From: an uncultured Hungatella sp. | GTDB taxonomy: Bacteria; Bacillota; Clostridia; Lachnospirales; Lachnospiraceae | Direction of reading: 5' to 3' | Assembly: GCA_947089145.1 (NCBI GenBank) | Contig: CAMUJH010000012.1 | Coordinates: forward strand, 20,159-84,158 | Length of the DNA: 64,000 bases | Shown here: in pieces, positions 2,614-32,447 of the stretch | How the letters are laid out: the number at the start of each line of letters is the position of its first letter | Numbering within the stretch: position 1 is the stretch's first letter | Position numbers and translations under genes: made by a program | Notes under the pieces: model-generated | The model's input: the letters and a program-made list of their open reading frames with translations, nothing else | What the model was told of the DNA's origin: nothing | The model's database searches: none

Positions 2614-2684
2614 GCCTGTATTCTGCGGAAAGCCCTTGTGCCATACAGAGACAGGAATGCCTGAAGAGAGCCATTTAGTACTTC

Positions 2685-2713
2685 TTGACAGCGGTTATGG
2701 AAAACAATATAAT
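2685..2713 (+). promoter_or_regulatory. Consensus sigma-A promoter for glyA
   Basis: TTGACA at 2685-2690, a 17-bp spacer and TATAAT at 2708-2713 form a perfect consensus promoter about 40 bp upstream of the glyA start, with AGGAG at 2742-2746. This predicts a short leader with no room for a riboswitch. Confidence 0.85.
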
Positions 2714-2754
2714 AAAAAACATCAATTTACAAGCAGATTGAGAGGAGAAAAGTC

Positions 2755-4005
2755 ATGGTTAATGAAGTCATGGAGTTTATCACAAAGTTTGATCCGGAAG
2801 TGGGACAGGCCATCGAGTCCGAGGCGGCCCGCCAGAGGAGGAATCTGGAACTGATTGCTTCAGAAAATATTGTATCTGAGGCGGTTATGATGGCTATGGG
2901 GACGGTTCTGACCAACAAGTATGCGGAAGGATATTCCGGAAAACGGTATTACGGCGGCTGTCAGTGCGTGGATGTGGTGGAAACCCTTGCCATTGAGCGG
3001 GCAAAGAAGCTGTTTGGCTGTGACTATGCCAATGTACAGCCCCATTCCGGCGCGCAGGCTAATATGGCAGTTTTTGTGGCCATGCTGAAGCCTGGGGATA
3101 CGGTTATGGGCATGAACCTTGACCATGGCGGACACCTGACTCATGGGAGTCCGGTAAATTTCTCGGGCCTTTATTTTAACATCGTGCCTTATGGTGTCAA
3201 TGACGAGGGGTATATAGATTATGATGAATTAGAGAGAATCGCAATGGAAGCCAAGCCGAAGCTGATTGTAGCCGGAGCCAGTGCATATGCCAGAACCATT
3301 GACTTTAAGCGCTTCCGTCAGGTAGCTGATAAGGCAGGGGCATATCTGATGGTAGATATGGCTCACATTGCGGGCCTGGTGGCAGCAGGGCTTCATCCAA
3401 GTCCCATTCCTTATGCAGACGTAGTAACCACCACCACCCACAAAACGCTGCGGGGGCCCAGAGGCGGCATGATTCTGGCCAATAAAGAGGCGGCTGACAA
3501 ATTTAATTTCAACAAGGCTATTTTCCCGGGAACCCAGGGAGGCCCGCTGGAACATATAATTGCCGCCAAGGCCGTATGTTTTGGAGAGGCGCTGAAGCCT
3601 GAGTTTAAGACTTATCAGGAGCAGGTGGTGAAGAATGCCGCAGCCTTGGCAAAGGCTTTGGAAAAGCAGGGCTTTAAGATTCTTACAGGCGGCACGGACA
3701 ACCACCTGATGCTGGTAGACTTAAGGGGAATGGATATATCCGGCAAAGAGCTTCAGAACCGGTGCGACGAGGTGTATATCACGCTGAATAAGAATACAGT
3801 ACCCAATGACCCGAGAAGCCCGTTTGTGACTTCCGGCGTAAGGATCGGTACTCCTGCGGTTACTTCCAGAGGCCTTAAGGAAACAGATATGGAAAAGATT
3901 GCAGAGTGCGTATGGCTGGCAGCTACAGACTTCGAGAACAAGGCCGGCTACATCCGGGAAGAGGTTACTAAGATCTGCAGTGCCTACCCGATCTATGAAG
4001 GCTGA
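2755..4005 (+). CDS. glyA: Serine hydroxymethyltransferase
   Basis: The 416-residue PLP enzyme interconverts serine plus tetrahydrofolate and glycine plus 5,10-methylene-tetrahydrofolate, feeding cytosolic one-carbon metabolism. Visible family motifs are LELIASEN near residue 31, [15 protein letters not shown] at about 54-68, and the PLP-lysine motif [14 protein letters not shown] with Lys230. Length matches bacterial GlyA. It is monocistronic: it has its own consensus promoter and an intrinsic terminator shared with the convergent activase gene. Confidence 0.96.
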
Positions 4006-7000: not shown

Positions 7001-8310
7001 CTTTCCACGGTATTGTCCCGGATTTTTATGCATTTCATGTCCTGGCCGCCGATATCCAGGATGCAGTCTACCTGAGGGTCAAAAAATGCGGCCGCATAGT
7101 AGTGGGAAATGGTTTCTACCTCTCCTTCATCCAGCATCAGAGCGGCCTTTAAAAGGGCTTCTCCATACCCTGTGGAACATGACCAGGCGATATGAGCAGT
7201 CTCAGGAAGCAGTGCGCGGATCTCCCGTATGGAACGTATGGCAGTTGCCAGAGGACTTCCGTTGTTGTTGCTGTAAAAGTGGTACAGCAGCGTACCGTCC
7301 TGCCCGACAATGGCAACCTTGGTGGTGGTGGAACCGGCGTCAATGCCCAGAAAGCAGTTTCCTTTATAGGAAGCTAAGGAAGCCTTCCGGACGGAGTGAC
7401 GGCTGTGGCGGGCTAAAAATGCATCATAATCTGCCTGATCATCAAACAGGGGTTCCATCCGTTTTATTTCCACATCCATCTTAATGCCATGAACCAGCTG
7501 CTTTATCAAATCTTCCAAGAAAACCGCAGTGCCCTTGCTGCTGTTCATGGCGGCGCCCAGTGCGGCAAAAAGATGCGAGTGTTCAGGCGCGATAATCTGG
7601 CTGCCAGACAGATTCAGGGTACGAATAAACGCCATGCGCAGTTCGGAGAGGAAATGCAGAGGCCCTCCAAGAAAGGCCACATTGCCCCGGATAGGCTTTC
7701 CGCAGGCCAGGCCGCTGATGGTCTGATTGACCACGGCCTGGAAGATGGAAGCAGCCAGATCCTCCCTGGTGGCCCCGTCATTAATAAGGGGCTGGATATC
7801 GGATTTGGCGAACACGCCGCATCTTGCAGCTATGGGATATATCATCTGATAATTTTTTGCATATTCGTTAAGGCCGGATGCGTCAGTCTGAAGCAGTGAC
7901 GCCATCTGGTCAATAAAAGAGCCGGTGCCGCCGGCACAGATGCCGTTCATCCGCTGATCGACTCCGCCGGTGAAATAGATGATTTTGGCATCTTCCCCCC
8001 CAAGCTCAATGGCTACATCCGTGTGCGGGGCCTCCGCTTGAAGAGCAGAAGCGACAGCCACAACCTCCTGAACAAAAGGCACTTTCAGATGGCCGGACAG
8101 AGTCAGGCCTCCGGAACCGGTGATGGTGGGAAAAAGCATGAGGGCACCCAGCTTTTTGTGGGCCTGCTCCAAAAGCTGAGCCAGCGTTTCCTGAATATTG
8201 GCATAATGCCGCTTGTAGTCAGCAAAAAGTATCTTATGTGCTTCATCAATAATTGCTACTTTTACAGTGGTGGAACCGATATCGATTCCTAAAGAATAGT
8301 ATTTCGTCAT
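4069..8310 (-). CDS. Giant 2-hydroxyacyl-CoA dehydratase activase (BadF/BadG/BcrA/BcrD ATPase) fusion
   Basis: The 1413-residue protein carries two tandem ASKHA-type ATPase domains. The first (about 1-260) has [15 protein letters not shown] and [10 protein letters not shown]. The second (about 318-580) has [15 protein letters not shown] and [12 protein letters not shown], including a Cys typical of the iron-sulfur-bridging activase dimer. The remaining 800 residues match the DUF2229/activase-associated C-terminal type, with several Cys motifs such as CKGCTNRC. Family members use ATP to deliver low-potential electrons to 2-hydroxyacyl-CoA dehydratases or related reductases. No dehydratase subunits are next to it, so the substrate is unknown. 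This long form is common in Clostridia. Confidence 0.88.
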
Positions 8311-12162: not shown

Positions 12163-13437
12163 ATGGAAAAGAAACCATTTGTGACACTGGAGAAACTGCA
12201 GGAGATTGTGAAAGATTACCCGACCCCTTTCCATCTGTATGACGAAAAGGGAATTCGGGAAAATGCAAGAAGGCTTAAGGAGGCATTTGCCTGGAATCAT
12301 GGGTTTAAAGAGTATTTCGCCGTGAAGGCTACTCCCAATCCATTTATATTAAAGATTCTTAAAGAGGAGGGATGCGGGACGGACTGCTCTTCCCTGACAG
12401 AGCTGATGATGTCAGATGCCTGCGGATTTGGAGGGAAAGAAATCATGTTTTCGTCCAATGATACGCCCCTGGAAGAGTTTCGGTTTGCCAATGATCTGGG
12501 TGCCATTATAAATCTGGATGACTTTACGCATATTCAGTGTGTGGAGGAGACTTTGGGGAAGATTCCGGAAACCATTTGCTGCAGATATAATCCGGGAGGC
12601 GTGTTCAAGATCAGCAATGACATTATGGACAATCCGGGAGATTCCAAATACGGCATGACCACGGAGCAGATGTTCCAGGCATTTAAGATATTGAAAGAAA
12701 AAGGAGCGAAGTATTTCGGCATCCACGCTTTTTTAGCCAGCAATACAGTGACTAACGAATATTATCCCATGCTGGCAAAAGTATTGTTTGAGCTGGCTGT
12801 AAGACTTCATGAGGAAGTTGGCGCGGATATTCGCTTTATCAATCTGTCAGGCGGAGTCGGAGTTCCCTACCGCCCTGACCAGGAGCCTAATGATATCAAG
12901 GTTATTGGTGACGGCGTGCGGAAAGTATATGAGCAGGTTCTGGTTCCGGCAGGGATGGGAGACGTGGCGCTGTTTACAGAACTGGGGCGGTTTATGCTGG
13001 CGCCTTACGGATGCCTTGTGACAAAAGCGATTCATGAGAAGCATACCCATAAGGAATATATAGGAGTAGACGCCTGTGCCGTAAACCTGATGCGGCCAGC
13101 GGTTTATGGCGCGTATCACCATATTACCGTGGCGGGAAAAGAGGACAGAGATTGTGACCATATCTATGACGTGGTGGGATCTTTGTGTGAAAACTGTGAT
13201 AAATTTGCTATTGACAGAAAGCTGCCGCAGATTGAAAAGGGCGATTTGCTGGTGATTCATGACACGGGAGCCCACGGGTTTTCTATGGGATATAATTACA
13301 ATGGAAAGCTAAAATCAGCGGAGCTGCTTTTAAAGGAGGACGGTTCTGTAGAGATGATACGAAGGGCGGAGACTCCAAAGGATTATTTTGCTACGTTTGA
13401 CTTCAGCAGTGTAATGGGGAAATACGGAGAGCGGTAA
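12163..13437 (+). CDS. lysA: Diaminopimelate decarboxylase
   Basis: The 424-residue, PLP-dependent, alanine-racemase-fold enzyme converts meso-diaminopimelate to lysine plus CO2. The PLP lysine is in EYFAVKATPNP (Lys55). Other family signatures are the glycine-rich NLSGGVGVPYRPDQ and the C-terminal SLCENCDKFA, which fits the CENxD motif that contributes across the dimer interface, and a final GAHGFSMGYNYN. It stands alone here, not beside other lysine genes. Confidence 0.93.
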   Translation: MEKKPFVTLEKLQEIVKDYPTPFHLYDEKGIRENARRLKEAFAWNHGFKEYFAVKATPNPFILKILKEEGCGTDCSSLTELMMSDACGFGGKEIMFSSNDTPLEEFRFANDLGAIINLDDFTHIQCVEETLGKIPETICCRYNPGGVFKISNDIMDNPGDSKYGMTTEQMFQAFKILKEKGAKYFGIHAFLASNTVTNEYYPMLAKVLFELAVRLHEEVGADIRFINLSGGVGVPYRPDQEPNDIKVIGDGVRKVYEQVLVPAGMGDVALFTELGRFMLAPYGCLVTKAIHEKHTHKEYIGVDACAVNLMRPAVYGAYHHITVAGKEDRDCDHIYDVVGSLCENCDKFAIDRKLPQIEKGDLLVIHDTGAHGFSMGYNYNGKLKSAELLLKEDGSVEMIRRAETPKDYFATFDFSSVMGKYGER

Positions 13438-13907: not shown

Positions 13908-15632
13908 ATGCAGAATCAGAAGATGGAGAATATACTGAATCTGGCTCTTGAGGCCACGCCGGAGGAAATAGAGAGGTCGGAGACACTGGCCATAGGATAT
14001 GATCCTGCAGAGAAAACGTGGGAAGTGATTGTGAAGCATTCGCAGCCCCTTAGTGGGCTGGAGCAGATGGGAGTGAGGCAGACAGAGCTGTTAAATCAGT
14101 ATTCTATCCTTACGGTTCCAGAGTCAAAACTTGAAGAAATAAGCAGGCTGAATCAGGTGGAATATATTGAAAAACCAAAGAGGCTGTACTTTTCCGTAGG
14201 GGTGGGAAAGACGGCCTCTTGCATTTCCTATGTCCAGGCCGAAGGCAGCAGCTATGGGCCGTATTTGACAGGGCGGGGGTGCCTGGTAGCGGTGATTGAT
14301 TCAGGGATTGATTATTACCATGATGATTTCCGCAGCGAGGACGGGAGCACCAGGATCGTGGAATTGTGGGATCAGACGCTTGATAGGATTTTTACGGAAC
14401 AGGAGATAAACGAGGCGCTTAGTCAAGGAAGCCGCAGGGAGGCGAGAAGGGTTGTTCCAAGCGTGGACGGAAGCGGCCATGGGACGGCAGTGGCAGGGAT
14501 TGCTGCGGGAAACGGGAGGGGCAGCCAGAGTCAGAGCCAATACCGGGGAGTGGCGTTTGAAAGCCGTCTTTTGGTGGTAAAACTTGGAAGAGCCGATCCT
14601 TTAGGATTTCCAAGAACGACAGAATTAATGAAGGCATTGGATTATGTGGTGCGGCGGGCTGCAGAGATTGGGATGCCGGTATCGGTTAATGTGAGTATCG
14701 GCAATACGTACGGCTCTCACGACGGAACCAGCCTTTTGGAGACTTACATTGACGGGATTTCCAATTATGGAAGAAATGTCATTGTAATTGGTTCAGGAAA
14801 TGAGGCAAGAAGCGGAGGCCATGCTTCAGGAGTTCTGGCAATGGGCAATTCTGTTAATGTGGAACTGTCCGTTGCCCCGTATGAAAGCGGAATAACAGTT
14901 CAGCTGTGGAAGCATTGTGTGGATGATTTTTCCATTACTCTGGTGACTCCGTCAGGGGATATTCTGGGGCCTTTGCCGCCGGTGATTGGCCCGCAGACTT
15001 ATAATTACGAAAGCACCAGAATTCTTTTATATTACGGAGAGCCAGGCCCTTACAGTAAAGCCCAAGAGATTTATTTTGATTTTATCCCTCTTCATCGGGA
15101 CTATCTGCAGAGCGGAATATGGGTGTTCCATTTAACGCCAAGGAAAATTATTCAGGGAAATTATGATTTTTGGCTGCCGTCATCGACCATATTAAACAAC
15201 TCTACCTATTTTTTACAGTCAACACCAGATACCACGTTGACAATTCCGTCTACAGCCTCTATGGCCATAACAGTGGGGGCCTATAACAGTAATTATCAGA
15301 CGTATGCTGACTTTTCGGGACGGGGATTCACCAGAGTGACGAATCAGGTCAAGCCGGATATTGCGGCGCCGGGAGTGGGGATCATGGCGCCTAAAAGTGG
15401 AGGAGGGTATGAGGCGGTGACCGGTACATCCTTTGCTGCCCCTTTTGTGACTGGAAGCGGGGCGCTGCTGATGCAGTGGGGGATTGTGGAAGGGAGAGAT
15501 GAATTTTTATATGGGGAGAAATTGAAGGCGTATCTGATGCGGGGAGCCAGGCAGATTCCGGGGTATAATGTGTGGCCGAATCCTCAGCTTGGCTGGGGGA
15601 CTTTGTGTTTGCGGGATAGTTTGCCTGTGTAA
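13908..15632 (+). CDS. S8 subtilisin-family serine protease, Csp-like
   Basis: The 574-residue protein has an intact catalytic triad: Asp131 in VAVIDSGID, His191 in GSGHGTAVAG and Ser508 in TGTSFAAPF. A long insertion of about 150 residues lies between the oxyanion-hole Asn region (SGNEARSGG) and the Ser motif, consistent with the jelly-roll insertion of clostridial Csp proteases. No signal peptide is seen; residues 1-90 look like a prodomain. Csp homologues process spore cortex-lytic enzymes, but this family also includes vegetative members, so the role is uncertain. Its last 12-13 codons are found again at 29543-29590. Confidence 0.88.
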   Translation: MQNQKMENILNLALEATPEEIERSETLAIGYDPAEKTWEVIVKHSQPLSGLEQMGVRQTELLNQYSILTVPESKLEEISRLNQVEYIEKPKRLYFSVGVGKTASCISYVQAEGSSYGPYLTGRGCLVAVIDSGIDYYHDDFRSEDGSTRIVELWDQTLDRIFTEQEINEALSQGSRREARRVVPSVDGSGHGTAVAGIAAGNGRGSQSQSQYRGVAFESRLLVVKLGRADPLGFPRTTELMKALDYVVRRAAEIGMPVSVNVSIGNTYGSHDGTSLLETYIDGISNYGRNVIVIGSGNEARSGGHASGVLAMGNSVNVELSVAPYESGITVQLWKHCVDDFSITLVTPSGDILGPLPPVIGPQTYNYESTRILLYYGEPGPYSKAQEIYFDFIPLHRDYLQSGIWVFHLTPRKIIQGNYDFWLPSSTILNNSTYFLQSTPDTTLTIPSTASMAITVGAYNSNYQTYADFSGRGFTRVTNQVKPDIAAPGVGIMAPKSGGGYEAVTGTSFAAPFVTGSGALLMQWGIVEGRDEFLYGEKLKAYLMRGARQIPGYNVWPNPQLGWGTLCLRDSLPV

Positions 15633-21999: not shown

Positions 22000-22022
22000 A
22001 GAGGCGTAAAGAGTTTCCGAAA

Positions 22023-22670
22023 GTGTTCGGAATAGGAAAATTCTGTTTTTGTGTAAATTTTTTTGCTAATTCCCTAACCGGGTTTTCTCTTGAAGAACAC
22101 ACGGCTCCGGAAATCTGGTTTACCCAGGATGCGGGGCCCTGGGAATGGAAAGGGCCGGTGATTCGGGAAAATGGATACGCTTACGGAAAGTTTTTTGAGA
22201 GAAAGGCGGCTTATATAAGCAGGGAATGGTTTCCGGACTTTGCCAACTACCGGAGGGACGGCTATGATTTCGACGCCCGGTTCGACGACGGGCTGGCATC
22301 CTATAAGGACAGGGTGCTTTACGAGCTTGTTGAGAAAAACGGCCCGCTCCTGTCGAAAGAATTGAAACGGCTTGGAAATTATAAAAAAGGCGGGAATACA
22401 GGATTTGATACCATGATTACCAGGCTGCAGTCACAGTGCTATGTGGTAATCAGCGATTTCGTATATCTGAAAGACAAGAAGGGCTGCCAGTATGGGTGGG
22501 GAGTGGCCAAATATGCGACTCCGGAACAATTTATGGGGGAAGATTTCGCAAAAAAGGTGTATGAAAGAGAACCTGAAGAATCATATGAACGGATATTGGA
22601 GCATCTGTGCAGAGTGCTTGGGGGAGTGAAAACGGAAAGGCTGAAAAAGTTTCTGGGGAGGTTTGGATGA
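22023..22670 (+). pseudogene. AlkZ-related winged-helix protein, 5'-truncated
   Basis: From about 22085 the frame carries the signature of AlkZ-related proteins: GPWEWKGPVI, YGKFFERKAAYIS and FANYRRDGYDFDA. It runs cleanly to the stop at 22668-22670. The beginning is abnormal: the frame continues backward through the AEC gene out of phase, no ribosome site precedes the in-frame GTG at 22023, and the usual N-terminal helices are missing. I read it as a 5'-truncated gene, although a short functional protein is not excluded. Homologues are annotated from similarity to AlkZ DNA glycosylases. Confidence 0.55.
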
Positions 22671-22695
22671 AAGGATTTAGAGGGAGTTTTACCTG

Positions 22696-23548
22696 ATGGA
22701 CAGGGGATATTCGGCGTCCAAGGTAAGCCTGGTCGTTTCTGCTTCCTTGGCTGTTTCCGTGGCTTTGCAGCCGGTTGTGGGGTTTTTAAGCGACCGGTTT
22801 GACAATCCGGTGGTGGAGCAGATGGCTACTGTCTCCAGATTCCCATATGGCAGAATCCGGGTGTATGGGACCCTTGGATACGCCGTAGGGACCCAGATCA
22901 GCGGGATTCTTTACCGCTATGTTTCCCCAGGAGCCATGTATCAGATGTGCGGTATCGGCATGGTGGTGTGCATGGCAGGCATTCTTGGCACCCAGGATGT
23001 CCGGCAAAAAGGAGAGGAGGAAGGCAAACCGTCAAAGAAAGGGCACCTTTCTCCCTTCCATGTTTCAGGAACGGGGCATGAGCATAGATATGGCGGCCAC
23101 GGTGATTTTTGCGGCAACTCTGATGGAGTTCCCCATCGTTATGTTTTCCGGCAGGGTTATGGATTGTATGAAAAATAAAGTGCTGCTACTGGCGGTATTT
23201 TCGCTTCTGGTGATACAGTTTGGGGTTTACGCTTTTGTACCGGCTGTGACATTTCAGGCTGCTGCCGCATTTTTTACCAAATCTGTAGCAACCATGGCAT
23301 ACATTATGATTAATCTGAAAGCGATTGCATCCATCGTGGATAAACGGTATCAAATGACGGCCCTTGCCCTGGTAGCGGCGTTGAAAAGCCTGTTTACCGT
23401 CGGATTTCAGACTGTGTGCGGGTATCTGCTGGACCATGGGACTTATGAGCGACTGTATCTGCTCCTGTTGGGGGTATCGGCAGTTGGGATTCTGCTGACT
23501 TTGGCCAGCCCCATTCCAGACGGAACCCAGGAGAAGCTGTTTGGGTAA
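22696..23548 (+). pseudogene. MFS transporter (LacY/NupG-like) pseudogene
   Basis: The frame from 22696 encodes KVSLVVSASLAVSVALQP and VGFLSDRF, a typical MFS loop 2-3 motif. It then jumps directly to PVVEQMATVSRFPYGRIRVY, implying an internal deletion of about two membrane helices. After HLSPF the homology shifts to the next frame (PSMFQERGMSIDMAATVIF) and continues to 23548. The start, first helix and reading frame are all damaged, so no transporter is made. Confidence 0.8.
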
Positions 23549-23606
23549 GAGAATTTGTAAAAGATAAAAATAAGTAGAAGGAACAAAAATAATGAAATTA
23601 CACATT

Positions 23607-23655
23607 GCAGGGGCAATCTCCAAAGTGGGGCTTAATATGTTGCCCCTGCAGTTTT
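23607..23655 (+). terminator. Intrinsic terminator downstream of the MFS pseudogene
   Basis: A 10-bp stem GCAGGGGCAA/TTGCCCCTGC has a 23-nt loop and is followed by AGTTTT. It ends the readable part of the MFS remnant and precedes the defence-like operon region. Confidence 0.7.
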
Positions 23656-23701
23656 GATAAAGGATATTTGATAAAAAGATATATACTGGTATGTAACTAA
23701 A

Positions 23702-23868
23702 GAAACGCACACTTTATAGAAAACGTTGGCACTGCTAGACCGTTGATTGGTTCTGAGTAGCAGTGTGCTATAAAGGGCGATATAGACATGTAACGGTTTT
23801 AGTTCGTATAAAAGCCGTTACTTTATGAAAAGAGATACGGCAAAGGAAAGGAAGTCCGTGTCTTTTTT
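23702..23868 (+). ncRNA. Candidate structured small RNA upstream of the defence-like operon
   Basis: TTGATA (23668-23673), 16 bp and TATGTA (23690-23695) could start a transcript near 23702. It would contain a nested hairpin with outer arms CTTTATAG/CTATAAAG and inner arms GCACTGCTA/TAGCAGTG (23712-23775). A second hairpin GTAACGG/CCGTTAC follows (23790-23821), and a G-U-containing stem GATACGG/CCGTGTC ending in six T (23834-23868) resembles a terminator. No coding frame fits. Promoter and RNA are inferred; the structure is seen. The following 23869-24182 shows no convincing gene. Confidence 0.35.
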
Positions 23869-24182
23869 ATTTTTCCATATATTTTAGATATGATGCAGAT
23901 TTTACGGGAACCCGCACCGGGAGACAGGAAAAAATCCTTATGTTCTGACTGGGGCGGTTTTCCCGTCCAAATAATTCCGGCAGAGGAGATATCAGCCCTC
24001 TGCTGGATTCTTGCCGGATGCAAGACCTGCCGCCACAGACCTGGCAATCTGCTTTGTTTGCGGCGCATAGTGTTTCATTCGGCTGGCAATGGAACTGACA
24101 GAGGGAAGAAAAGTGATTAGAAGTTGTAGAAATGCTCATAGTTTGGTACAATAACGATAGTATGGATGCCAAAGGAGTTTCT

Positions 24183-26516
24183 ATGAGAAAACGAGTCAGG
24201 GAAATCGGGTTTGACGTAGATGCTTATACTGCCAGATTGATCGGCCGGGAGAATGTGTCAAAACTAGAGGGTGCAGTGTTTGAGATTGTGAAAAACGCCT
24301 ATGATGCGGATGCAAGTGTATGCTGTCTGTATTATTCCAACACAGAGGATCGAATCTACATTTTGGATAATGGCTGGGGAATGAAGGAAGAAGTGCTGCG
24401 CACCCATTGGATGACAATCGGAAATTCATCCAAAAAGAGTTCTTATATTACAAAAAATGGAAGAATACAGACAGGAGCAAAGGGAATTGGCCGATTTGCT
24501 TTGGATCGCATGTCCGATCAATGTGATATGCTTACGATTTCAGATGAAGGAAGCCTGGAATGGATCGTAGACTGGAGGGACTTTGATGGAAGTAAACGAA
24601 TATCCGAGGTAAAGGCAAGAGTTTATGATACGGATATTCGTTTGCTGGAGCATGTGGGAATTGAAAGTTGGAAAAACAGGGCAGTGGCAGCAGAAATAGA
24701 GAAATGTAATTTTGGGGGAACAGGAACAGCATTTTGCCTGGACCATCTTCATGATGTCTGGAATGAAAAGACAATGAACGCTCTCAGAAATCATTTGGAG
24801 AATTTGTTACCTCCAGATGTGACGCAGAAGTTCTGCATTTGGTTTTTTGATGATTCAACCAGTGTGGAGGATGCATTGATAACCAGTGCAAATGTGGAGT
24901 CCTATGACTATCGGATAGATTTTCAGGTTACCGCTAATTTAGTGAATATTCAGATCACACGGAATGAATTCGATTTTCGTGGAGAGGAGCAGGAAGTATA
25001 TACAGAGGCAGGATTTGATGAACTTGAGCAGGCCTATCTGCAGGGGAAAAAGAAGGAAGAGTCGTTTACCATTGAAGAAATAGGGGAGAAAGAGAACTTC
25101 ATCGGGGACTTTGAAGGCGTATTATATTTTTATAAAATAAGTGCGAACAAAAAGGATCAGGAAAGATTTTATTATAAAGATATTACAGGCCGGGCAAACC
25201 TTGCCAAAAAATTTGGCGGGATTAAGTTGTATCGTGATCAATTCCGTGTGCGCCCTTATGGTGAGTATGGTGATAATGATTTTGACTGGTTAGAGCTTTC
25301 TGCCAGGCGGAATCGTTCTCCGGCAGGTCTTGGAAAGAAAACGGGAAATTGGCGTGTCGGCTCAGAACAGATGCTGGGAACCGTGTCAATATCCAGAGAA
25401 AATTCAAACCTGGAGGATGCGGCGAATCGTAACGGTATTCAGGAGGGAATCGGTTTTTCACAGCTGAAAAGGATTCTGTTATTTGTGATTGCAGAGTTTG
25501 AACGGGATCGGCAGTTTGTAGGGCGTAAGCTGGCCAGATATGCGGATAAAAAGGATCAACTGGCGGCTAAACTGGAAGAAATACGTCGACTTGCGGAAGC
25601 ACGGAAAAAATGGGAAGCAGAACAATCAGCCAGGGAACAGTCGGAAAAAACAAAAAACGCGGAGGAGCGGCCATCAAAATCGAGTTTGCCGCCTTCGGCC
25701 AATCCGGAAGATGTTATGAATCTGGTGGCAAATATGGAGCAGAAACAGGAGGAAGAACTGGAAGAACTGCGAAACGAGAATAAAATGCTTCAGACATTAG
25801 CCACGACAGGGATTATTACCAATATGTTTATGCATGAGATTCGAACATCTACCAATAATATTGGCCTGGAATTAAACGCAGCCTATGAAGCTATAGAATA
25901 TGATAATGATGTGGAGTATGCTTTACAGAATATCTTGCGTGCGATCAGAGTTAAAAAGAATTTTGCTTCATGGTTTGGCATCACCATTGAATCCATCAAA
26001 AAGGATAAACGAAAGAGAAAAAAACATAATATTCAAAGCATGCTGGAACAGTATATGAATACGTGGAATGATATTCTGGATAAAAGCGGAACCAATTTTA
26101 TCTATAAGTGTGACTCGGATATAGAGCTTTGGTGCTTTGAGTTTGATATTGAGAATATTATTAGTAATTTAATTGCTAACAGCCTGGCGTCTTTTGACAG
26201 GGAAATGGACAGAAAGCTGGAAAAACGGGAAATTAGATTGAATATATCCAAACTTGAAAGTAGATTATCAATGGATTATCAGGATAGTGGATGGGGTTTG
26301 ATTCCAAAATATAAAAAGCGGCCGGAGTTGATTCTAGAACCATTTGAGAGCGGTCATCATTTTGAAGGAGCGGATGAAGAGGATGGGACCGGGATGGGGA
26401 TGTGGATCGTAAACCGTACTATATCCGAGTATAATGGAACTATTGATCTGAGTGAAAATCTGAGAGCGGAAACAGGATTTTATGCAAAAATCATATTAGG
26501 AGGTCGAAATGTATAG
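24183..26516 (+). CDS. Double GHKL protein: Hsp90/MORC-like ATPase fused to a histidine-kinase module
   Basis: The 777-residue protein has two ATPase units. The first (about 25-200) shows EIVKNAYDADA, DNGWGM and GAKGIGRFAL, the Bergerat N, G1 and G2 boxes of Hsp90/MORC-type ATPases, followed by a transducer-like region. A charged coiled coil at about 450-540 leads to a dimerisation-helix segment MHEIRTSTNN with His551 as the likely phospho-acceptor. A second Bergerat fold has NLIANSLASF, DSGWGL and GTGMGMWIVN. No membrane helices or signal peptide are seen. ATG 24183 follows AAAGGAG. It overlaps the response-regulator gene by 8 bp, so the two are probably cotranslated partners. Confidence 0.85.
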   Translation: MRKRVREIGFDVDAYTARLIGRENVSKLEGAVFEIVKNAYDADASVCCLYYSNTEDRIYILDNGWGMKEEVLRTHWMTIGNSSKKSSYITKNGRIQTGAKGIGRFALDRMSDQCDMLTISDEGSLEWIVDWRDFDGSKRISEVKARVYDTDIRLLEHVGIESWKNRAVAAEIEKCNFGGTGTAFCLDHLHDVWNEKTMNALRNHLENLLPPDVTQKFCIWFFDDSTSVEDALITSANVESYDYRIDFQVTANLVNIQITRNEFDFRGEEQEVYTEAGFDELEQAYLQGKKKEESFTIEEIGEKENFIGDFEGVLYFYKISANKKDQERFYYKDITGRANLAKKFGGIKLYRDQFRVRPYGEYGDNDFDWLELSARRNRSPAGLGKKTGNWRVGSEQMLGTVSISRENSNLEDAANRNGIQEGIGFSQLKRILLFVIAEFERDRQFVGRKLARYADKKDQLAAKLEEIRRLAEARKKWEAEQSAREQSEKTKNAEERPSKSSLPPSANPEDVMNLVANMEQKQEEELEELRNENKMLQTLATTGIITNMFMHEIRTSTNNIGLELNAAYEAIEYDNDVEYALQNILRAIRVKKNFASWFGITIESIKKDKRKRKKHNIQSMLEQYMNTWNDILDKSGTNFIYKCDSDIELWCFEFDIENIISNLIANSLASFDREMDRKLEKREIRLNISKLESRLSMDYQDSGWGLIPKYKKRPELILEPFESGHHFEGADEEDGTGMGMWIVNRTISEYNGTIDLSENLRAETGFYAKIILGGRNV

Positions 26517-27153
26517 AGTTGGATATATAGATGATGAACCGACACAATTTGAAAATTATAAGAGATCATTGCGCCGGCGGTGTAAGGAACTGGATCTGGT
26601 GCTGATAGAGGATTGTGAGAGTAAACAGGATATTTTGGATAAAATTTATGAGAAACAAATTGATGTACTGTTAATTGACTATAAAATGGTAAAGAATTAT
26701 GGATTTAACGGAACTACATTGATTAATTATATTAATGATTCTATGCGTGATATCCAGTGCTTTATTATGACCGCTGTAGATACGGAGCAGATTACGGACG
26801 GACTTGTGGCCGATAGGGATAAATTTTCTAAAAATATTTTTGATACGGAAGGAGCAGATCCGAAAAAAGAGGCGGAATTAAATGCTTTTATCCAGATTTT
26901 GTTGGAGAGCGCAAAAGTATTTCAGGTTCGGCGACAGCAAAAATTAGGGCGGTATAAAGAACTGTTAGACAAAAAACTTCATGGGGAGTTAGGGGCAGAT
27001 GAGGAGGAATTTCTGGAGTTGTATAAGGTCTTGTCATCTTATGGGTTAGTAGAAAAGTTGCCTAAAAATATGCTGAATTCAAAATTTGAGGAGCGATTAC
27101 AGCGGATACTGGAATTGGGAAGTGCGATCATTGCGGAACATAAGACAGAATAG
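26509..27153 (+). CDS. Response-regulator-like protein (REC domain plus novel helical C-terminus)
   Basis: The 214-residue protein begins with GYIDDEP (acidic pair Asp8/Asp9), has the phospho-acceptor Asp57 in VLLIDYKM, and a Thr in CFIMTAVD followed by a Lys in DKFSKNIF, the standard receiver-domain residues. Residues 125-214 are helical and charged with no recognised DNA-binding domain. It lies in frame overlap with the preceding kinase-like gene, which makes it the likely phosphorylation target. The output may be protein-protein, for example on the HNH nuclease or methylase encoded next. Confidence 0.8.
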   Translation: MYRVGYIDDEPTQFENYKRSLRRRCKELDLVLIEDCESKQDILDKIYEKQIDVLLIDYKMVKNYGFNGTTLINYINDSMRDIQCFIMTAVDTEQITDGLVADRDKFSKNIFDTEGADPKKEAELNAFIQILLESAKVFQVRRQQKLGRYKELLDKKLHGELGADEEEFLELYKVLSSYGLVEKLPKNMLNSKFEERLQRILELGSAIIAEHKTE

Positions 27154-27178
27154 CCAGCAATAGATAAAGGAGAATATA

Positions 27179-27763
27179 TTGAGAGTACATGGTGATAAAA
27201 TAATTCGGAGACGGAAAGGTATCTCGGAATTGAAAAAGTATCAGGATGGCAGAGAACTGTTGGAGCAGGATTTTTATTATCTATGTGGTTACTGTGGAAA
27301 AGATGGAAATGTGTTGCACCAAAAACTTCATTTGGATCATTTTGTCCCGAAGAGTTTAGATAAAAGCCGGGAAAATGATTATTATAATTTGGTTTTAGCC
27401 TGTTCAAGATGTAACCTGTCTAAGTCAGATAAATGGCCGACAGGAGATATTACGCAACCACATAATGAAAAAGATGGATTTGTGGATCCGGCAGTTCCAG
27501 AATTTGACGAGCATTTGGAGCGGAATGAGAAAGGATATGTGGTTGGGAAAACACCTGTTGGAGACAGTATGTGCAATATGCTTCACCTGGATATCAGAAG
27601 AACAGATCTATACTGGAATGCGGCTCAATTAAAGAGGCAGCTCAAAGAATTGGAGAAACTATTTCAGGAAGGAAAATTAACAGAGCGGCAAAAAGATATT
27701 TATATCGAGACTAATATGATTTTTAATGAATACATAGACCAGGCATTTACAAAGGGTGAATAA
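27179..27763 (+). CDS. HNH endonuclease
   Basis: The 194-residue protein has a complete HNH motif with zinc knuckles: CGYC at 36-39, HLDHFVPKS with catalytic His54, NDYYNLVLACSRCN at 66-79 and SKSDKW after it. HNH proteins of this kind cut DNA in restriction and phage-defence systems. The start is TTG 27179, seven nt after AAAGGAG. It ends exactly where the methylase begins (TAAATG), so the two genes are tightly coupled. A standalone HNH nuclease next to a methylase suggests a restriction role. Confidence 0.82.
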   Translation: MRVHGDKIIRRRKGISELKKYQDGRELLEQDFYYLCGYCGKDGNVLHQKLHLDHFVPKSLDKSRENDYYNLVLACSRCNLSKSDKWPTGDITQPHNEKDGFVDPAVPEFDEHLERNEKGYVVGKTPVGDSMCNMLHLDIRRTDLYWNAAQLKRQLKELEKLFQEGKLTERQKDIYIETNMIFNEYIDQAFTKGE

Positions 27764-29350
27764 ATGGACAGTGATAAATTATCGGGTACCTATTACACTC
27801 CGCCCGATGCAATTCAGTTTATGATGGAGTATTTAAAAAAAGAACAACAGGATTTTTCTAATGTGTTGGAACCTTCAGCAGGTGATGGAAGGTTCCTTCC
27901 TTTGTTGCAAGAGAATGCGTCACATATAACAGCTATTGAGCTATTTCAGGAAAAAGTAGATCAGATGTGCCGGGAATATACAGGAGGCTTATTTACAATC
28001 GTAAAGGATAATTTTCTTGACTTTGCTGTCAATACATTAGAGCGCTATTCACTGATTATAGGAAATCCTCCGTATATTAATAAAAAACGGATGGGTAAGG
28101 AGGATCTTGAGAAAGCATATGTAATTTGTACAGAGGCAGGATTAAGCAAAACGGTGATGCAGAATATGTGGCTGGCGTTTATAATGGGCTCCTGTCGTTT
28201 ACTTCAACCAGGTGGCAGTATTTTTTTTATATTACCGATGGAATTTTTGCAAGTGCAATATGCAGAGAGACTTAGGGAACATCTGGAGAAGATATTTAAT
28301 ACGATTCATATTATTGTTTTTCAAAAGGCTCTGTTTCCGAAGATTGAACAGGAGGTCTGCCTGGTATATCTGACAAATAAAAGATATGCGGAAAGGCATA
28401 TACGTTATGAGATATATGAGGACTGCAGAAAGAGAGTTCCAATACAGGAAAATAGTATCCGTTGGAATAAACCATTAAAAAAGTGGTCAAACGCAATTCT
28501 CGATGATAGTGATATTTCTTTATTAAAAAATGCTATGAATCGATATCCACGAATCAAAAATATGGGGCAAATCGCACCTGGTATTGTGACAGGAGGGAAC
28601 CGATATTTTATTTTATCAGAAGAAATGGTAGAAAAGTATCAGTGTAGGGAGTTTGTGCTTCCCATTGTTCAGAAAGCTTCTTATATACCAAAGAATATCA
28701 TAGAAATTTCTGAGGAAGTAGTAAAAGAGATAAGCCTGAATAACAAGCCGCTTTATCTGTTGAACCTTTCTGGGGAGAAAGATATACTAAGATTGCCTAT
28801 TGCACTGCAAAAATACTTGAACTGGGCGGGAGACCAGAAGGTGGGTGATATACCGCTGAAAGATTGTTATAAATGTTCGACTCGGATGCCGTGGTATGGT
28901 GTGCCTATTGTGAAAAAGGGAGAAGTGGTATTTTTTAAACGTTATGGTCAACTGCCTCGTATTTATTATAACTCAGCGGGGGTACATACTACGGATGCAG
29001 GGTATCATATACGGCTTATGGACGAGTTTGATGGGGAGAGTTTGGTGTTCTGTTTTTTTAATTCTATCACTCTTGCTCAATGCGAATTTGATGGACGCTA
29101 TTATGGCGGAGGAGTATGTGAACTTGTACCAACAGAGTTTAAGGATATTGTGGTTCCATATCGTCGTATTAGAGAAAAAGATAAAGAAAAATTAAAGTCT
29201 TTGTTCAAAAGTGGAGAACCAGTGGACGAAATTGTTAAATTTGTAAATGAGTTGACAATTTATAGAGATTACGAGGCCAAACAGATACATCGGTTTGAAG
29301 AAATTCGCAGAGTATTGATGGGAAGAAGAGATGGTAAGATAGGATTTTAA
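27764..29350 (+). CDS. N6-adenine DNA methyltransferase, Eco57I/TaqI-like
   Basis: The 528-residue protein has the gamma-class amino-methyltransferase motifs: TYYTPPDA at 9-16, SAM-binding VLEPSAGDGRF at 34-44 and catalytic NPPY at 101-104. The C-terminal half (about 270-520) looks like the target-recognition and helical spacer region of type I/IIG enzymes, ending in a coiled segment. No nuclease motif (PD-ExK) is seen in the protein itself. It is the last gene of the four-gene operon, probably marking self DNA so that the adjacent HNH nuclease, or the ATPase-receiver pair, acts only on foreign DNA. Confidence 0.87.
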   Translation: MDSDKLSGTYYTPPDAIQFMMEYLKKEQQDFSNVLEPSAGDGRFLPLLQENASHITAIELFQEKVDQMCREYTGGLFTIVKDNFLDFAVNTLERYSLIIGNPPYINKKRMGKEDLEKAYVICTEAGLSKTVMQNMWLAFIMGSCRLLQPGGSIFFILPMEFLQVQYAERLREHLEKIFNTIHIIVFQKALFPKIEQEVCLVYLTNKRYAERHIRYEIYEDCRKRVPIQENSIRWNKPLKKWSNAILDDSDISLLKNAMNRYPRIKNMGQIAPGIVTGGNRYFILSEEMVEKYQCREFVLPIVQKASYIPKNIIEISEEVVKEISLNNKPLYLLNLSGEKDILRLPIALQKYLNWAGDQKVGDIPLKDCYKCSTRMPWYGVPIVKKGEVVFFKRYGQLPRIYYNSAGVHTTDAGYHIRLMDEFDGESLVFCFFNSITLAQCEFDGRYYGGGVCELVPTEFKDIVVPYRRIREKDKEKLKSLFKSGEPVDEIVKFVNELTIYRDYEAKQIHRFEEIRRVLMGRRDGKIGF

Positions 29351-29411
29351 GAGGGTGTCTCGTGCTCGAAGATATTGGATGATGGGAGGTAAATAGAAGT
29401 TTTTTGAGAAC

Positions 29412-29545
29412 AACTTGACACTAATTTACAGTCAATTTTGCCTAAACTTAGCATTACTGTACCATTCTCCCCACAGAGTTATACGGGTTTCTGCGGTTTT
29501 CGCTCAAAAAAAGTGAAAAAAGTTTGTGACATTAACTTGACATTA
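29412..29545 (+). repeat. Direct repeats at the right edge of the accessory region
   Basis: AACTTGACACTA (29412-29423) and AACTTGACATTA (29534-29545) are 12-nt direct repeats with one mismatch, 122 bp apart. The second abuts the displaced subtilase 3' end. Such pairs resemble integrase arm-type sites. The rest of 29351-29542 shows no gene. Confidence 0.4.
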
Positions 29546-29590
29546 GCGGGATGGGGGACTTTGTGTCTGCGGGACAGTCTGCCGGTGTAG
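29543..29590 (+). pseudogene. Displaced 3' end of an S8 (Csp-like) subtilase gene
   Basis: The frame reads GWGTLCLRDSLPV followed by TAG at 29588-29590, identical in protein to the C-terminus of the intact subtilase at 13908-15632. At DNA level TGGGGGACTTTGTGT is identical, then third codon positions differ (CTG/TTG, GAC/GAT, CCG/CCT). Nothing upstream resembles the subtilase. It is either a duplicated integration-site end or the relic of a second subtilase gene. Confidence 0.8.
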
Positions 29591-29623
29591 AATAAACTTG
29601 TTATCTGAACTGTTACCTATAGA

Positions 29624-29672
29624 ATGCCCCATGAAGAAATGCTGTCAGCAACAGCGGCTCTTCATGGGGTAT
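29624..29672 (+). terminator. Intrinsic terminator after the displaced subtilase 3' end
   Basis: Arms ATGCCCCATGAAGA and TCTTCATGGGGTAT enclose a small inner stem GCTGT/ACAGC. It lies 34 bp beyond the displaced subtilase stop, whereas the intact subtilase at 15632 has no comparable hairpin directly after it. It may also serve the convergent AraC gene. Confidence 0.7.
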
Positions 29673-29704
29673 TTATGTAACAGCTATTCTGCTGCTGATA
29701 ATTT

Positions 29705-30625
29705 TTATTGTAAATCCATGTTTGCGCCTGGGGCGCCCATTGCCTTAAGCTTTGCCCGGTACTGCATGGGCGTCATGCCGTGGAGGGTGCGGAAGGATTT
29801 GAGAAAGCTGCTGTAGTTGGTGAAGCCGCTGTTGGTGCAGGCGTCCAGGACGCTGCGTCCGGCGGCGATTTCCTGACGGCAGTGCTGCATGCGCAGGTTT
29901 CGGATATAATCGTGGATGCTTTCCATGGTGTATTCTTTAAAGACCCGGGAAAGGTGCTCCCGGCTGGTGAAGGTGTATTTGGCCAGGAACGTTGCGGTCA
30001 GGCCCGGATCTGTGTAGTGGTCCCGGATGTATTCTACCGCAGCGGAAACCAGGGTGCTGGTACAGCTGGGAGATGGCATCTCTGTATGCCGGTCTTCTAC
30101 AAGCTGGTTGATAAAAAGCTGGAGCTCTATAAGCTCGCAGGTGAGAATAATCTCCTGGCAGTCCCTCCGGATGTGGGGAATCTGGACCATCCTTTCCAGA
30201 AGGCCCCGCAGATCCCAGGTAGATACGGCATGGGCGTTGAGTATGACAATATTCTGCTGCCACTGGGGATTGCTAAGACCAGACTGGCGGATGGCCATGT
30301 CCCAGACACTGGTACTGATCTGGACCACAAGCCGGTCGGAGACTGTGTCTGTCACCGTATATCTGCCGGCATGGTAGAGCTCCGCTGGGAAGAAAACCAT
30401 CTCCCCGGGGTGCAGGGTGTAGAGATTTCCCAGAAAGGAGTACTGTACATCACTGCCGGATATGAGAAGAATAATCTCATGGTAGGGGTGGGAATGGACT
30501 ACAGACTGCTTATTTTTCTGGTTTGTGAACCAGGTTACCGCCACCTGGCATTCCTCCAGATTGATCCGGGCCATTTCCTGGGTGAGCAGAGAATCGGTGA
30601 AGTGGTTAATTTTCTGGACAATCAT
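29705..30625 (-). CDS. AraC-family transcriptional regulator with cupin sensor domain
   Basis: The 306-residue protein has an N-terminal cupin/AraC-binding domain (HSHPYHEIILLISG and LHPGEMVFFPAELYHAG at about 43-87). A C-terminal pair of helix-turn-helices at about 200-300 includes SREHLSRVFKE and ACTNSGFTNYSSFLKSFR, and the family ending GMTPMQYR. Such regulators bind a sugar or sugar acid and activate catabolic operons. It is divergent from the TRAP/GH31 locus and is its likely controller. An AGGAGG site precedes the ATG. Confidence 0.9.
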   Translation of the reverse strand: MIVQKINHFTDSLLTQEMARINLEECQVAVTWFTNQKNKQSVVHSHPYHEIILLISGSDVQYSFLGNLYTLHPGEMVFFPAELYHAGRYTVTDTVSDRLVVQISTSVWDMAIRQSGLSNPQWQQNIVILNAHAVSTWDLRGLLERMVQIPHIRRDCQEIILTCELIELQLFINQLVEDRHTEMPSPSCTSTLVSAAVEYIRDHYTDPGLTATFLAKYTFTSREHLSRVFKEYTMESIHDYIRNLRMQHCRQEIAAGRSVLDACTNSGFTNYSSFLKSFRTLHGMTPMQYRAKLKAMGAPGANMDLQ

Positions 30626-30646
30626 AAGAGGCCTCCTTTTTCTAAG

Positions 30647-30675
30647 AGTATATCTGGAAATATCACATTTTGCAA
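30647..30675 (-). promoter_or_regulatory. Sigma-A promoter of the AraC-family gene
   Basis: On the minus strand, TTGCAA (30670-30675), a 17-bp spacer and TATACT (30647-30652) lie just upstream of the AraC-family start. The remaining A+T-rich divergent spacer up to 30800 should hold the plus-strand promoter but shows no clear consensus. Confidence 0.65.
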
Positions 30676-30800
30676 GTTTTCAGTCACAAAAAAATGAGAT
30701 TTCTATTTATTTTAATTGGTAAAATTAGACGAAAAGTAATGGAAAAAATAAGAAAATAGTAAAAAATATCTACAAAAATTTCTGAAATGAGGCCTTGCTA

Positions 30801-31382
30801 ATGGGTGGCGAACATAAATGTTTTGATATTCTGGTGGTTTTTGACGACGATACGATCCGGCGCATGTTCCGGGCGGAGTATTACACCTATGAGACGGCAC
30901 GGCGTCTGCTGCGGTTTCTCCTGGGAGCAGCGGGAATCATGGCCGCACTGTTTGTGGATTTCCCCACGGCAGGTAAGACAGTCTGCCTGATGGCTGGGGT
31001 GTGGATGCTGGTTGCCGGGGACTTTCCCAGCAAGGTCCAGGCCGAGGGTGTTATCAGTCAGCGGAGGGGCCGGCACAGCCAGGTGGTCTGCCGTGTGAAG
31101 GATGAAGGACTGGAGGTTCAGGGCGGCGGGTTTCTTTCCTACAGCAGCCTGGACAGGCTGGTCTATGACGAGGAATATCTGTATCTGTTTGCCAGCCGCC
31201 AGACAGCCGTTATGCTTCCGGCAGCCGCCATAGGCGCAGAACGGCTGGAGTCTTTTAAGGCGGAGGTTCGGGAGAAAAGCGGAAAACAATGGAAACGGCT
31301 TACAACCGGATTTCTGGAATACAATCTGAGGGATCTGGTGGAAGCCCTTGCAGGGAGGCAGAAAGCCAGCACGCGGAAGTAA
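30801..31382 (+). CDS. YcxB-like membrane protein
   Basis: The 193-residue protein has two adjacent hydrophobic segments at about 37-75 flanked by the phrase YTYETARRLLRFLLG, then a soluble domain resembling YcxB-like C-terminal domains (a beta-rich run LEVQGGGFLSYSSLDRLVYD and YLYLFASRQTAVMLP). The function of the family is unknown. ATG 30801 lies 8 nt after GAGG. It is the first gene of the TRAP locus but may be an unrelated passenger. Confidence 0.6.
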   Translation: MGGEHKCFDILVVFDDDTIRRMFRAEYYTYETARRLLRFLLGAAGIMAALFVDFPTAGKTVCLMAGVWMLVAGDFPSKVQAEGVISQRRGRHSQVVCRVKDEGLEVQGGGFLSYSSLDRLVYDEEYLYLFASRQTAVMLPAAAIGAERLESFKAEVREKSGKQWKRLTTGFLEYNLRDLVEALAGRQKASTRK

Positions 31383-31412
31383 TTAAAATTATATATATAG
31401 GAGGAATTTGTT

Positions 31413-32447
31413 ATGAAATTACGCAAGCATGCAAGGAAAGTAGCGGCATTGGTAGCGGCGGGGGCATTGATGCTGACCGCCTGCGGAGGGAGTGGGGGTA
31501 ATTCCTCAGGTTCCGGACAGGGAGCTTCTGGTGAGCAGACTTTTAATCTGAAGTTGAGCCATGGGCTGGCGGAGGATCATGCCGTCCACATCCAGATGAC
31601 CGAGTGGGCAGCAGATGTAAAGGAAAAATCCGGCGGCACCATCAATATCCAGATTGTCCCCAACGGACAGCTGGGCAGTGAGGCAGACAATATTTCCTCC
31701 ATCCAGGCCGGGGGGCTGGATATGGCCAAGGTATCTGCATCTACCCTTGGCAACTTCAATAACACCTGGAATGCCCTGTCTGTTCCCTATGTATTCAATG
31801 ACAAGGAGCACTTCTACCAGGTGATGGACGGAGAGATTGCCCAGGAGCTTTATAAGATGACAGAGGGAGACGGCTTCATCGGTCTTACCTGGCTGGATTC
31901 CGGCGCCCGTTCCTTCTATACGGCCAACACCCCCATTCGTGTGCCGGGTGACTTAAAAGGATTAAAGATCCGTACCATGGACAGCCAGATGGCCATTGAT
32001 ATGATGAATGCCCTGGGAGGCTCTGCTACGGTTATGAGCTATTCCGAGATTTATACCGGCATGCAGCAGGGTGTGGTAGACGGTGCCGAGAACAATATTA
32101 CGGCGCTTCGCGACCACAGCGATGTGACCCAGTATTACTGCTATGACGAGCACACCCGTATCCCGGACATCATCGTGATTTCTGCCAAGGTATGGAACCA
32201 GATGAGCGACAGCCAGAAACAGGTCATGACCGAAACCGCGGCTGCGGCCACGGAAGCTTACAAGACCCGCTGGGCCGAATTTGAAGACGAAGTAAAAGCC
32301 GCTGCCCAGCAGAACAATGTGACCTTTGTGGAGGATGTGGATACGGCTGCCTTCCAGGAAGCATGCAGCTCCATCTATGACAGCTTAAAGAGCAGCGCTC
32401 CTGAGGTGTATGCAATTGTGGAGAAGATCCAGAACGCTGGAAAGTAA
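31413..32447 (+). CDS. TRAP transporter solute-binding lipoprotein, DctP family
   Basis: The 344-residue protein has a lipoprotein signal peptide (LVAAGALMLTACGG, lipidated Cys about residue 24) and a Ser/Gly linker. The DctP fold includes GLKIRTMDS, whose Arg normally binds the ligand carboxylate, and GVVDGAENN. It captures a carboxylated solute outside the membrane and delivers it to the DctQM permease. A GGAGGAA site precedes the ATG. It is followed at 12 bp by the small permease gene. Confidence 0.92.
   Translation: MKLRKHARKVAALVAAGALMLTACGGSGGNSSGSGQGASGEQTFNLKLSHGLAEDHAVHIQMTEWAADVKEKSGGTINIQIVPNGQLGSEADNISSIQAGGLDMAKVSASTLGNFNNTWNALSVPYVFNDKEHFYQVMDGEIAQELYKMTEGDGFIGLTWLDSGARSFYTANTPIRVPGDLKGLKIRTMDSQMAIDMMNALGGSATVMSYSEIYTGMQQGVVDGAENNITALRDHSDVTQYYCYDEHTRIPDIIVISAKVWNQMSDSQKQVMTETAAAATEAYKTRWAEFEDEVKAAAQQNNVTFVEDVDTAAFQEACSSIYDSLKSSAPEVYAIVEKIQNAGK

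Follow-up and report, generated by a model that had tools for sequence, protein, structure and literature searches.

We examined a four-gene operon on the plus strand at positions 24183-29350 of a 64-kb stretch of DNA from an uncultured Hungatella species (the whole stretch, hereafter the window). The four genes are arranged in the order kinase, receiver, HNH nuclease and methylase, and the features of the operon are as follows:

24183..26516, plus strand: hybrid kinase of 777 amino acids (aa), with Pfam domains HATPase_c_3 and HATPase_c (structure model with a pLDDT of 79.2 and a pTM of 0.55)
24219..25535, plus strand: kinase residues 13-451, MORC/Hsp90-type GHKL ATPase and the domain that follows it
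25833..25835, plus strand: codon of His551, expected phospho-acceptor of the histidine-kinase half (His in 77/77 sets)
26010..26513, plus strand: kinase residues 610-777, catalytic ATP-binding domain (HATPase_c; HK853 family, 2c2a at 6.6e-17)
26509..27153, plus strand: stand-alone receiver of 214 aa (REC at residues 1-117, helical arm at 118-212)
26677..26679, plus strand: codon of receiver Asp57 (Asp in 77/77 sets)
27179..27763, plus strand: PtuB-like HNH nuclease of 194 aa with a TTG start (HNH at 41.6 bits; PADLOC PtuB at 3.8e-16)
27764..29350, plus strand: N6-adenine methylase of 528 aa, Eco57I type (PADLOC MTase_II at 1e-117; Eco57I and M_Eco57I_C)
28064..28075, plus strand: NPPY motif of the methylase
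28481..29218, plus strand: M_Eco57I_C region (PF22837), methylase residues 240-485, likely involved in target recognition

An initial annotation of this DNA had described the genes as overlapping or abutting, which holds for the kinase and receiver genes (8-bp overlap) and for the HNH and methylase genes (abutting) but not for the receiver and HNH genes, which are 25 bp apart. It had also called the module richer in A+T than its flanks, and the G+C content (GC) is indeed 0.37-0.43 over 24-29 kb versus 0.445-0.554 in the adjoining 14-24 and 30-40 kb; further GC dips occur elsewhere in the window (e.g., 0.412 at 50-51 kb). The protein architecture that it proposed was confirmed by independent means. 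A cytoplasmic kinase with two GHKL folds, one MORC/Hsp90-like and one histidine-kinase-like, agrees with the Pfam families found above cut-off (HATPase_c_3 at residues 28-144 and HATPase_c at residues 655-766), with structure comparison, which matched the folds to HK853 and DNA-bound MORC2, and with the lack of any hydrophobic stretch of membrane-helix grade in the kinase (maximum 19-residue Kyte-Doolittle value of 1.08). For the N-terminal half, the nearest structures were MORC3 and Hsp90, which tied, and both parts expected of a MORC-type protein, a GHKL ATPase and a following transducer-type domain, are present. Pfam HNH, Eco57I, and M_Eco57I_C models were likewise above cut-off for the nuclease and the methylase. 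The Pfam Response_reg match of the receiver was marginal (30.9 versus a cut-off of 30.2 bits), and its fold was borne out by the structure model (pLDDT of 86.6) and Foldseek. This protein had been described as carrying an intact Asp57 and no DNA-binding domain, and no such output domain was found in it by Pfam, the model, or Foldseek; the longer receiver proteins of its kin (340-385 aa) had no Pfam output domain above cut-off, and no receiver-HNH fusion occurred among the profile-matched open reading frames (ORFs) of the loci described below.

To place the operon in a wider sample, 84,980 species genomes were scanned with a kinase alignment, and the best 80 of 482 confirmed relatives (L023-L102) together with three loci from IMG/VR gave 83 kinase-anchored loci, which were scored with profiles for the four proteins. 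All four genes are present in 76 of these loci. The order is kinase-receiver-HNH-methylase in 46 and methylase first in 29, so that the kinase-receiver-HNH order is kept in 75 of 76, and the remaining one is permuted around the ends of a 5.5-kb contig. Among the seven incomplete loci, five (L024, L025, L055, L081, and L082) run off contig ends, one (L070) has a receiver start broken by an unread base, and the last (L028) is taken up below. Across 77 complete sets, the window included, identical residues were found without exception at His551, Asn662, and Asn666 of the kinase, Asp57 of the receiver, His54 and Asn70 of the HNH protein, and NPP of the NPPY motif. The residue after His551 is E or D in 76 sets, receiver Thr88 is kept in 75 (Ser in two), and the position of receiver Lys108 is occupied by Lys in 50 sets, by Arg in 23, and by other residues in four. 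A phospho-acceptor His and a receiver Asp with their partner residues, as expected of a two-component pair, are thus present and conserved, and their invariance indicates that the catalytic two-component residues are under strong selection. Differences between the kinase gene of the window and that of L026 fall mostly at third codon positions (85, 40, and 262 at the first, second, and third positions, respectively). Because the genes co-occur, the differences favour third codon positions, and the key residues are invariant, the operon is not a chance assembly. Co-occurrence of the four genes elsewhere and retention of the kinase and receiver residues in homologues were two of the three points on which the initial annotation had placed its refutation, and both came out in its favour; on the third, no match of this exact set to a named and characterised system was found in the sources covered.

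The four proteins do not share one evolutionary history in all respects. Pairwise identities were compared in 70 dereplicated sets (kinase identity below 95%; seven of the 77 were dropped), in which those of the kinase, receiver, and HNH protein correlate with Spearman coefficients of 0.68-0.77 (0.70 for HNH and kinase) and those of the methylase with the other three at 0.15-0.24 (0.15-0.17 for HNH and methylase). At an identity threshold of 33%, the methylases form three main families (23, 23, and 22 sets) and two singletons, and the nearest kin of a kinase has a methylase of a different family in 14 of 70 cases, five of which involve the singletons L042 (cut by a contig end) and L073. Between the window and L023, identity is 87% for the kinase, 88% for the receiver, and 85% for the HNH protein versus 56% for the methylase. 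These comparisons of sequence suggest that the kinase, receiver, and nuclease diverge together and that the methylase is sometimes swapped.

Such exchange bears on the possibility that the HNH protein and the methylase are a classical type II restriction-modification (R-M) pair acting on one site, with the MORC-kinase and the receiver adjusting enzyme level or loading, which we consider unlikely. In its favour, nuclease and methylase genes lie side by side in the window and both occur in the 76 complete loci (on opposite sides of the kinase and receiver genes in 29 of them), the methylase is of an Eco57I-like type II kind, and methylase and kinase co-diverge within the methylase family of the window (Spearman 0.82, compared with 0.01 and 0.27 in the other two families). 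MORC and paraMORC ATPases have also been tied to R-M operons, with a proposed role in DNA looping and with paraMORC1 found together with HNH genes (Iyer et al. 2008, PMC2292703, in the parts covered here). However, HNH proteins 85% identical accompany methylases 56% identical in the window and L023, and 14 of the 70 kinases, including the five cases noted, have their nearest kin beside another methylase family. Methylases 56% alike could have a common site, so the exchange makes a classical type II pair less likely without being decisive. An unrelated fold moreover replaces the HNH protein in sister operons, and no DNA-binding domain was detected in the receiver.

Comparison with known systems indicated close kin but no name for the set. 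Soluble histidine kinases with HATPase_c_3 domains that form pairs with receivers in the vicinity of R-M genes have been published (Bellieny-Rabelo et al. 2021, PMC8011034), and section 8 of that paper, as far as covered, includes HNH-type and N6/N4-methylase domains among the neighbours of HEF_HK. The present operon resembles these HEF_HK (PF19191)/Response_reg_2 (PF19192) elements in having a soluble kinase of HATPase_c_3, dimerization and phosphotransfer (DHp), and HATPase_c domains with a receiver and a DNA methylase as neighbours. With a kinase profile built from the present system, five HEF_HK proteins gave E values of 1e-44 to 1e-51 with most of the length aligned, and the architecture of an N-terminal HATPase_c_3 and a C-terminal HATPase_c domain is common to both. 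However, PF19191 had no match in the window kinase up to an E value of 0.1, in nine further superfamily kinases at 0.01, or in G000, and PF19192 had none in the window receiver up to 0.1. In the positive control L126, by comparison, the kinase matches PF19191 at 1.1e-28 and the receiver PF19192 at 3.9e-24. Membership by Pfam was therefore rejected, both models being silent here and positive for control HEF_HK loci. The HEF_HK loci L126-L130 further differ in having kinases of ~960-1000 aa and receiver proteins of ~530-600 aa (here 777 and 214 aa) and no match to the HNH family of the present system, and the one scanned for its methylase, L126, has a C5 methylase in place of an N6-methylase with a dedicated HNH gene. 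The system is therefore a sister branch to HEF_HK within one superfamily, and its nuclease and methylase are of a different type.

MORC and paraMORC ATPases of R-M operons are similar in that a MORC-like GHKL ATPase lies close to R-M genes, in the case of paraMORC1 with HNH. In the covered text of PMC2292703, however, these ATPases have no histidine-kinase core on the protein and no receiver (neither "response regulator" nor "two-component" appears as a term), and the present operon contains no helicase. VcSduA, a GHKL-Shedu phage defence protein whose defence is abolished by E27A (PMC12137116, in the parts covered), likewise combines a GHKL ATPase half with a nuclease but is a single protein with a PD-(D/E)xK nuclease and without a kinase core, receiver, or methylase. 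With Septu and retron systems the operon has in common PtuB, the best PADLOC match of the HNH protein, whose NCBIfam PtuB score (36) is below the 150-bit cut-off; no PtuA AAA ATPase gene is present in the operon, and the ATPase here is a GHKL kinase. In Detocs, a histidine kinase reportedly phosphorylates a receiver controlling an effector, with exchangeable effectors and with the receiver said to be fused to the effector. In the window and the complete loci, by contrast, the receiver and the HNH protein are encoded by two different genes; the present set also includes a DNA methylase, and its kinase has a MORC-like sensor half.

The types of nuclease and methylase have names in PADLOC, Pfam, and NCBIfam, but the set as a system has none there. 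PADLOC had no receiver match at an E value of 0.01 and only partial kinase matches (2.7e-8 over 102 residues, and 0.0015); the kinase matches to REase_II PDLC03485 and PD-Lambda-5_A were dismissed as signs of membership because each covers part of the protein. Kinases and receivers of the relatives likewise lack a covering PADLOC model (the L020 receiver partially matches PDC-M60B at 0.00035). No paper describing this four-gene set was found in a literature search whose coverage was thin on subscription journals, preprints, and supplements, and a predicted system of DefensePredictor whose Fig. 6F legend names HATPase and REC (PMC13092281, covered in part) may or may not be a relative. Thus, the description of the operon as undescribed and without a named counterpart stands for the exact set within these sources, but not for the soluble HATPase_c_3 kinase-receiver pair beside R-M genes, which is published (PMC8011034, as covered) and whose kinases align with the present ones.

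Related operons carry other proteins at the nuclease and methylase positions. In Hymenobacter volaticus (L107) and Burkholderia aenigmatica (L115), an N6-methylase, kinase, and receiver are joined by a metallo-beta-lactamase (MBL)-fold protein at the HNH position, weakly similar to RTasMBL, LmuA, and Avs1a models, and L179 combines a C5-methylase (by profile), kinase, receiver-like ORF, and MBL-fold protein, the last again at the HNH position. Six loci (L170, L171, L174, L175, L176, and L178) encode a kinase, a receiver-like protein of 351-374 aa (three matched by the receiver profile and the others recognized by eye), a protein of 237-263 aa termed X at the HNH position, and a methylase of 609-634 aa. 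In L180, a gene for a protein like 3'-phosphoadenosine 5'-phosphosulfate (PAPS) reductase (locus positions 1879-3003) takes the methylase position beside the kinase, with a receiver-like and an X-like protein, and might point to a sulfur-based DNA mark. The X proteins of these seven loci by eye form one family with HPxYHxQ- and PRIxHxPM-like motifs, and none of the four that were scanned matched a Pfam family above cut-off. The operons of L108, L112, and L173 combine a C5-methylase, a kinase, and a long receiver and lack HNH, and L181 has a C5-methylase (by profile), kinase, receiver-like ORF, and a further protein (7107-7853) with GHG and SC motifs and no Pfam match. In a tree of 55 kinases, each operon type forms one group; the HNH group (40 rows) has a support of 91/46 and is not starred, unlike the MBL, long-receiver, and HEF_HK groups, and long branches lead to L016 and L109. 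One genome (G297) has two superfamily members, of the HNH/N6-methylase type and the long-receiver type (L110 and L111).

Gating of the nuclease by the kinase-receiver pair is the best inference, and the exchangeable effector position in these sister operons lends it some support. Effector exchange is typical of abortive-infection-type systems, and an abortive mode, in which the relay would free the nuclease on all DNA including that of the host in response to an infection signal other than DNA methylation, with the methylase protecting the host or tuning the system, also accommodates the kinship of the HNH protein to PtuB, a defence effector, and the weak resemblance of its MBL-fold replacements to RTasMBL, LmuA, and Avs1a. 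We regard it as quite unlikely, since a methylase match adjoins the kinase in 77 of the 83 loci (five of the six others stop at a contig end) and a DNA-modifying enzyme is present in most related operons with other effectors. For the same reason, modification is favoured as the gate.

The operon is widespread, patchy, and mobile. The HNH type was found in Bacillota, Bacteroidota, Pseudomonadota, Campylobacterota, Myxococcota, Kiritimatiellota, and Melainabacteria, and also in Deinococcus, and phyla are intermixed in the kinase tree. In the class of the window, five of 391 genomes, its own included, have a kinase match at 1e-20, and in the family around the L096 genome (G632), 25 of 246 have a kinase relative at 1e-30. 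Loci taken from 20 of these 25 (leaving out the seed G632, G690, G724, G819, and G830) comprise seven of the kinase-receiver-HNH-methylase type (L163-L169) and 13 related operons of other make-up. An HNH-anchored search (E<=1e-20) gave 13 matches, in four of the 391 class genomes and nine of the 246 family genomes (window and seed included); 12 adjoin a kinase, whose end is cut by a contig edge in G690, and the other (G255) has a shortened receiver alongside and no kinase. Six weaker HNH matches were seen in the class (G360, G253, and G183) and the family (G732, G816, and G876), and the latter three genomes had no match in the family kinase search. By eye, the ORF next to the HNH relative in G360, G253, and G183 begins like an AAA ATPase, an arrangement resembling PtuAB. 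Five of six HNH-matching plasmid records are among the 40 kinase-matching records listed of 82, and the remaining one (Kovacikia) is absent from that list; phage records gave two weak partial kinase matches, in addition to the three IMG/VR loci. A plasmid of Klebsiella variicola (L018) has a decayed copy with a methylase, a kinase in three ORFs, a receiver, and HNH.

Streptococcus taonis (L034), Lachnoanaerobaculum (L049), and Haemophilus haemolyticus (L054) have 5.0-5.4 kb in common at 89-92% DNA identity, which amounts to the four genes and at most ~0.3 kb, and blastn at 1e-10 found nothing further in common within their 18-kb loci. As the match is confined to the operon across distant genera, the cassette moves as a unit. 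The permuted locus (L030; contig DPJQ01000014.1, 5550 bp) reads receiver-HNH-methylase-kinase and wraps around the contig ends; the contig may be a small circle with hardly any other content, or the arrangement may stem from the assembly. Among 128 nearest neighbours from 76 loci (the 83 less seven near-copies), some match PADLOC type I, II, and III R-M, AbiEii, Argonaute-associated protein, and candidate models; 153 models matched at 1e-8, the 25 shown matching one to four of the 128 proteins each, and 34 window ORFs outside the operon, used as a control, matched four models, none of them R-M or Abi. A role outside defence, as an epigenetic or DNA-repair switch whose kinase would read hemimethylated or damaged DNA, would suit the activity of MORC/MutL-type ATPases in repair and chromatin (see also PMC2292703, in the parts covered), but is highly improbable given the rare and patchy distribution (five of 391 class genomes), cross-phylum transfer, plasmid carriage, and defence genes among some neighbours.

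Taken together, we think it somewhat more probable than the sum of its rivals that the operon is a mobile defence cassette akin to restriction systems, controlled by a phosphorelay and gated by modification. The ATPase half would close as a dimer, probably on DNA; the state of invader DNA, most likely the absence of the modification of the cassette, would switch on phosphorylation of His551; the phosphate would pass to Asp57 of the receiver; and the helical arm of the receiver would then activate the HNH nuclease. Host DNA marked by the methylase would keep the relay off. The polarity may also be the opposite, phosphorylation silencing the nuclease. What we infer from these data comprises phosphotransfer within the pair, with its polarity and trigger, and activity against phages. 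A wider proposal, which we advance tentatively as a possibility that falls short of an even chance, is that the superfamily is a large, unnamed immune class in which a MORC-like DNA clamp fused to a histidine kinase and a receiver read the mark of their own cassette and relay phosphate to plug-in parts, the effectors being HNH, MBL-fold, X, and perhaps caspase-like proteins and the marks N6- and C5-methylation and perhaps phosphorothioation.

Several observations weigh against the preferred interpretation of a phosphorelay-run defence cassette. The 83 loci are the best-scoring ones and hence weighted to close kin, and L028 has no methylase match despite 2.6 kb from the HNH gene to the contig end. 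For every pair, the methylase correlations, though low, exceed the chance level (Mantel p 0.002), and the coefficient of 0.82 in the methylase family of the window means that exchange is not universal. The pTM of the kinase model is modest, and DNA binding by the ATPase half is suggested by a fold for which Hsp90 scores equal to MORC. The caspase-like character of the GHG/SC protein of L181, perhaps a protease effector, was recognized by eye and is not backed by a Pfam match. Finally, the link to defence-gene neighbours is weak, with one to four of 128 proteins per model and a small control (34 ORFs) from another setting.

If the preferred interpretation is true, bacteria can uncouple the reading of self and non-self DNA from cutting by means of a two-component phosphorelay, and under the wider proposal restriction would be an output of the phosphorelay and not of site reading by the nuclease itself. 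Either would give a testable role to MORC-type ATPases and to the HEF_HK/Response_reg_2 elements of 2021. Eukaryotic MORC ATPases act on chromatin by mechanisms that are still debated. No function was demonstrated for HEF_HK/Response_reg_2 elements in PMC8011034, as far as covered. Given its wide spread over phyla, the system may belong to the general biology of bacteria, and it has no name in the PADLOC copy used.

Two further features flank the operon:

24121..24182, plus strand: leader, with AAAGGAG upstream of the kinase ATG; DNA homology to the L023 and L026 operons begins at 24121
29409..29589, no strand assigned: repeated intergenic element of ~180 bp, directly downstream of the operon

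The extent of the leader was taken from blastn of window positions 22000-31500 against L023, L026, and L027, and homology with L027 begins at 24201. Promoter and terminator scans gave no signal above the shuffled level, Rfam had no match at 23400-30700, and a search of the genus for a clean empty site with both flanks returned partial matches and a repeat only. Several genomes of the genus contain copies or parts of the intergenic element, and a 41-bp partial copy lies at 15591-15631 of the window. The element may be a mark of insertion or exchange. In L026, its copies are located at 1803-1959, 7695-7870, and 13233-13371, and the operon is flanked by them on both sides.

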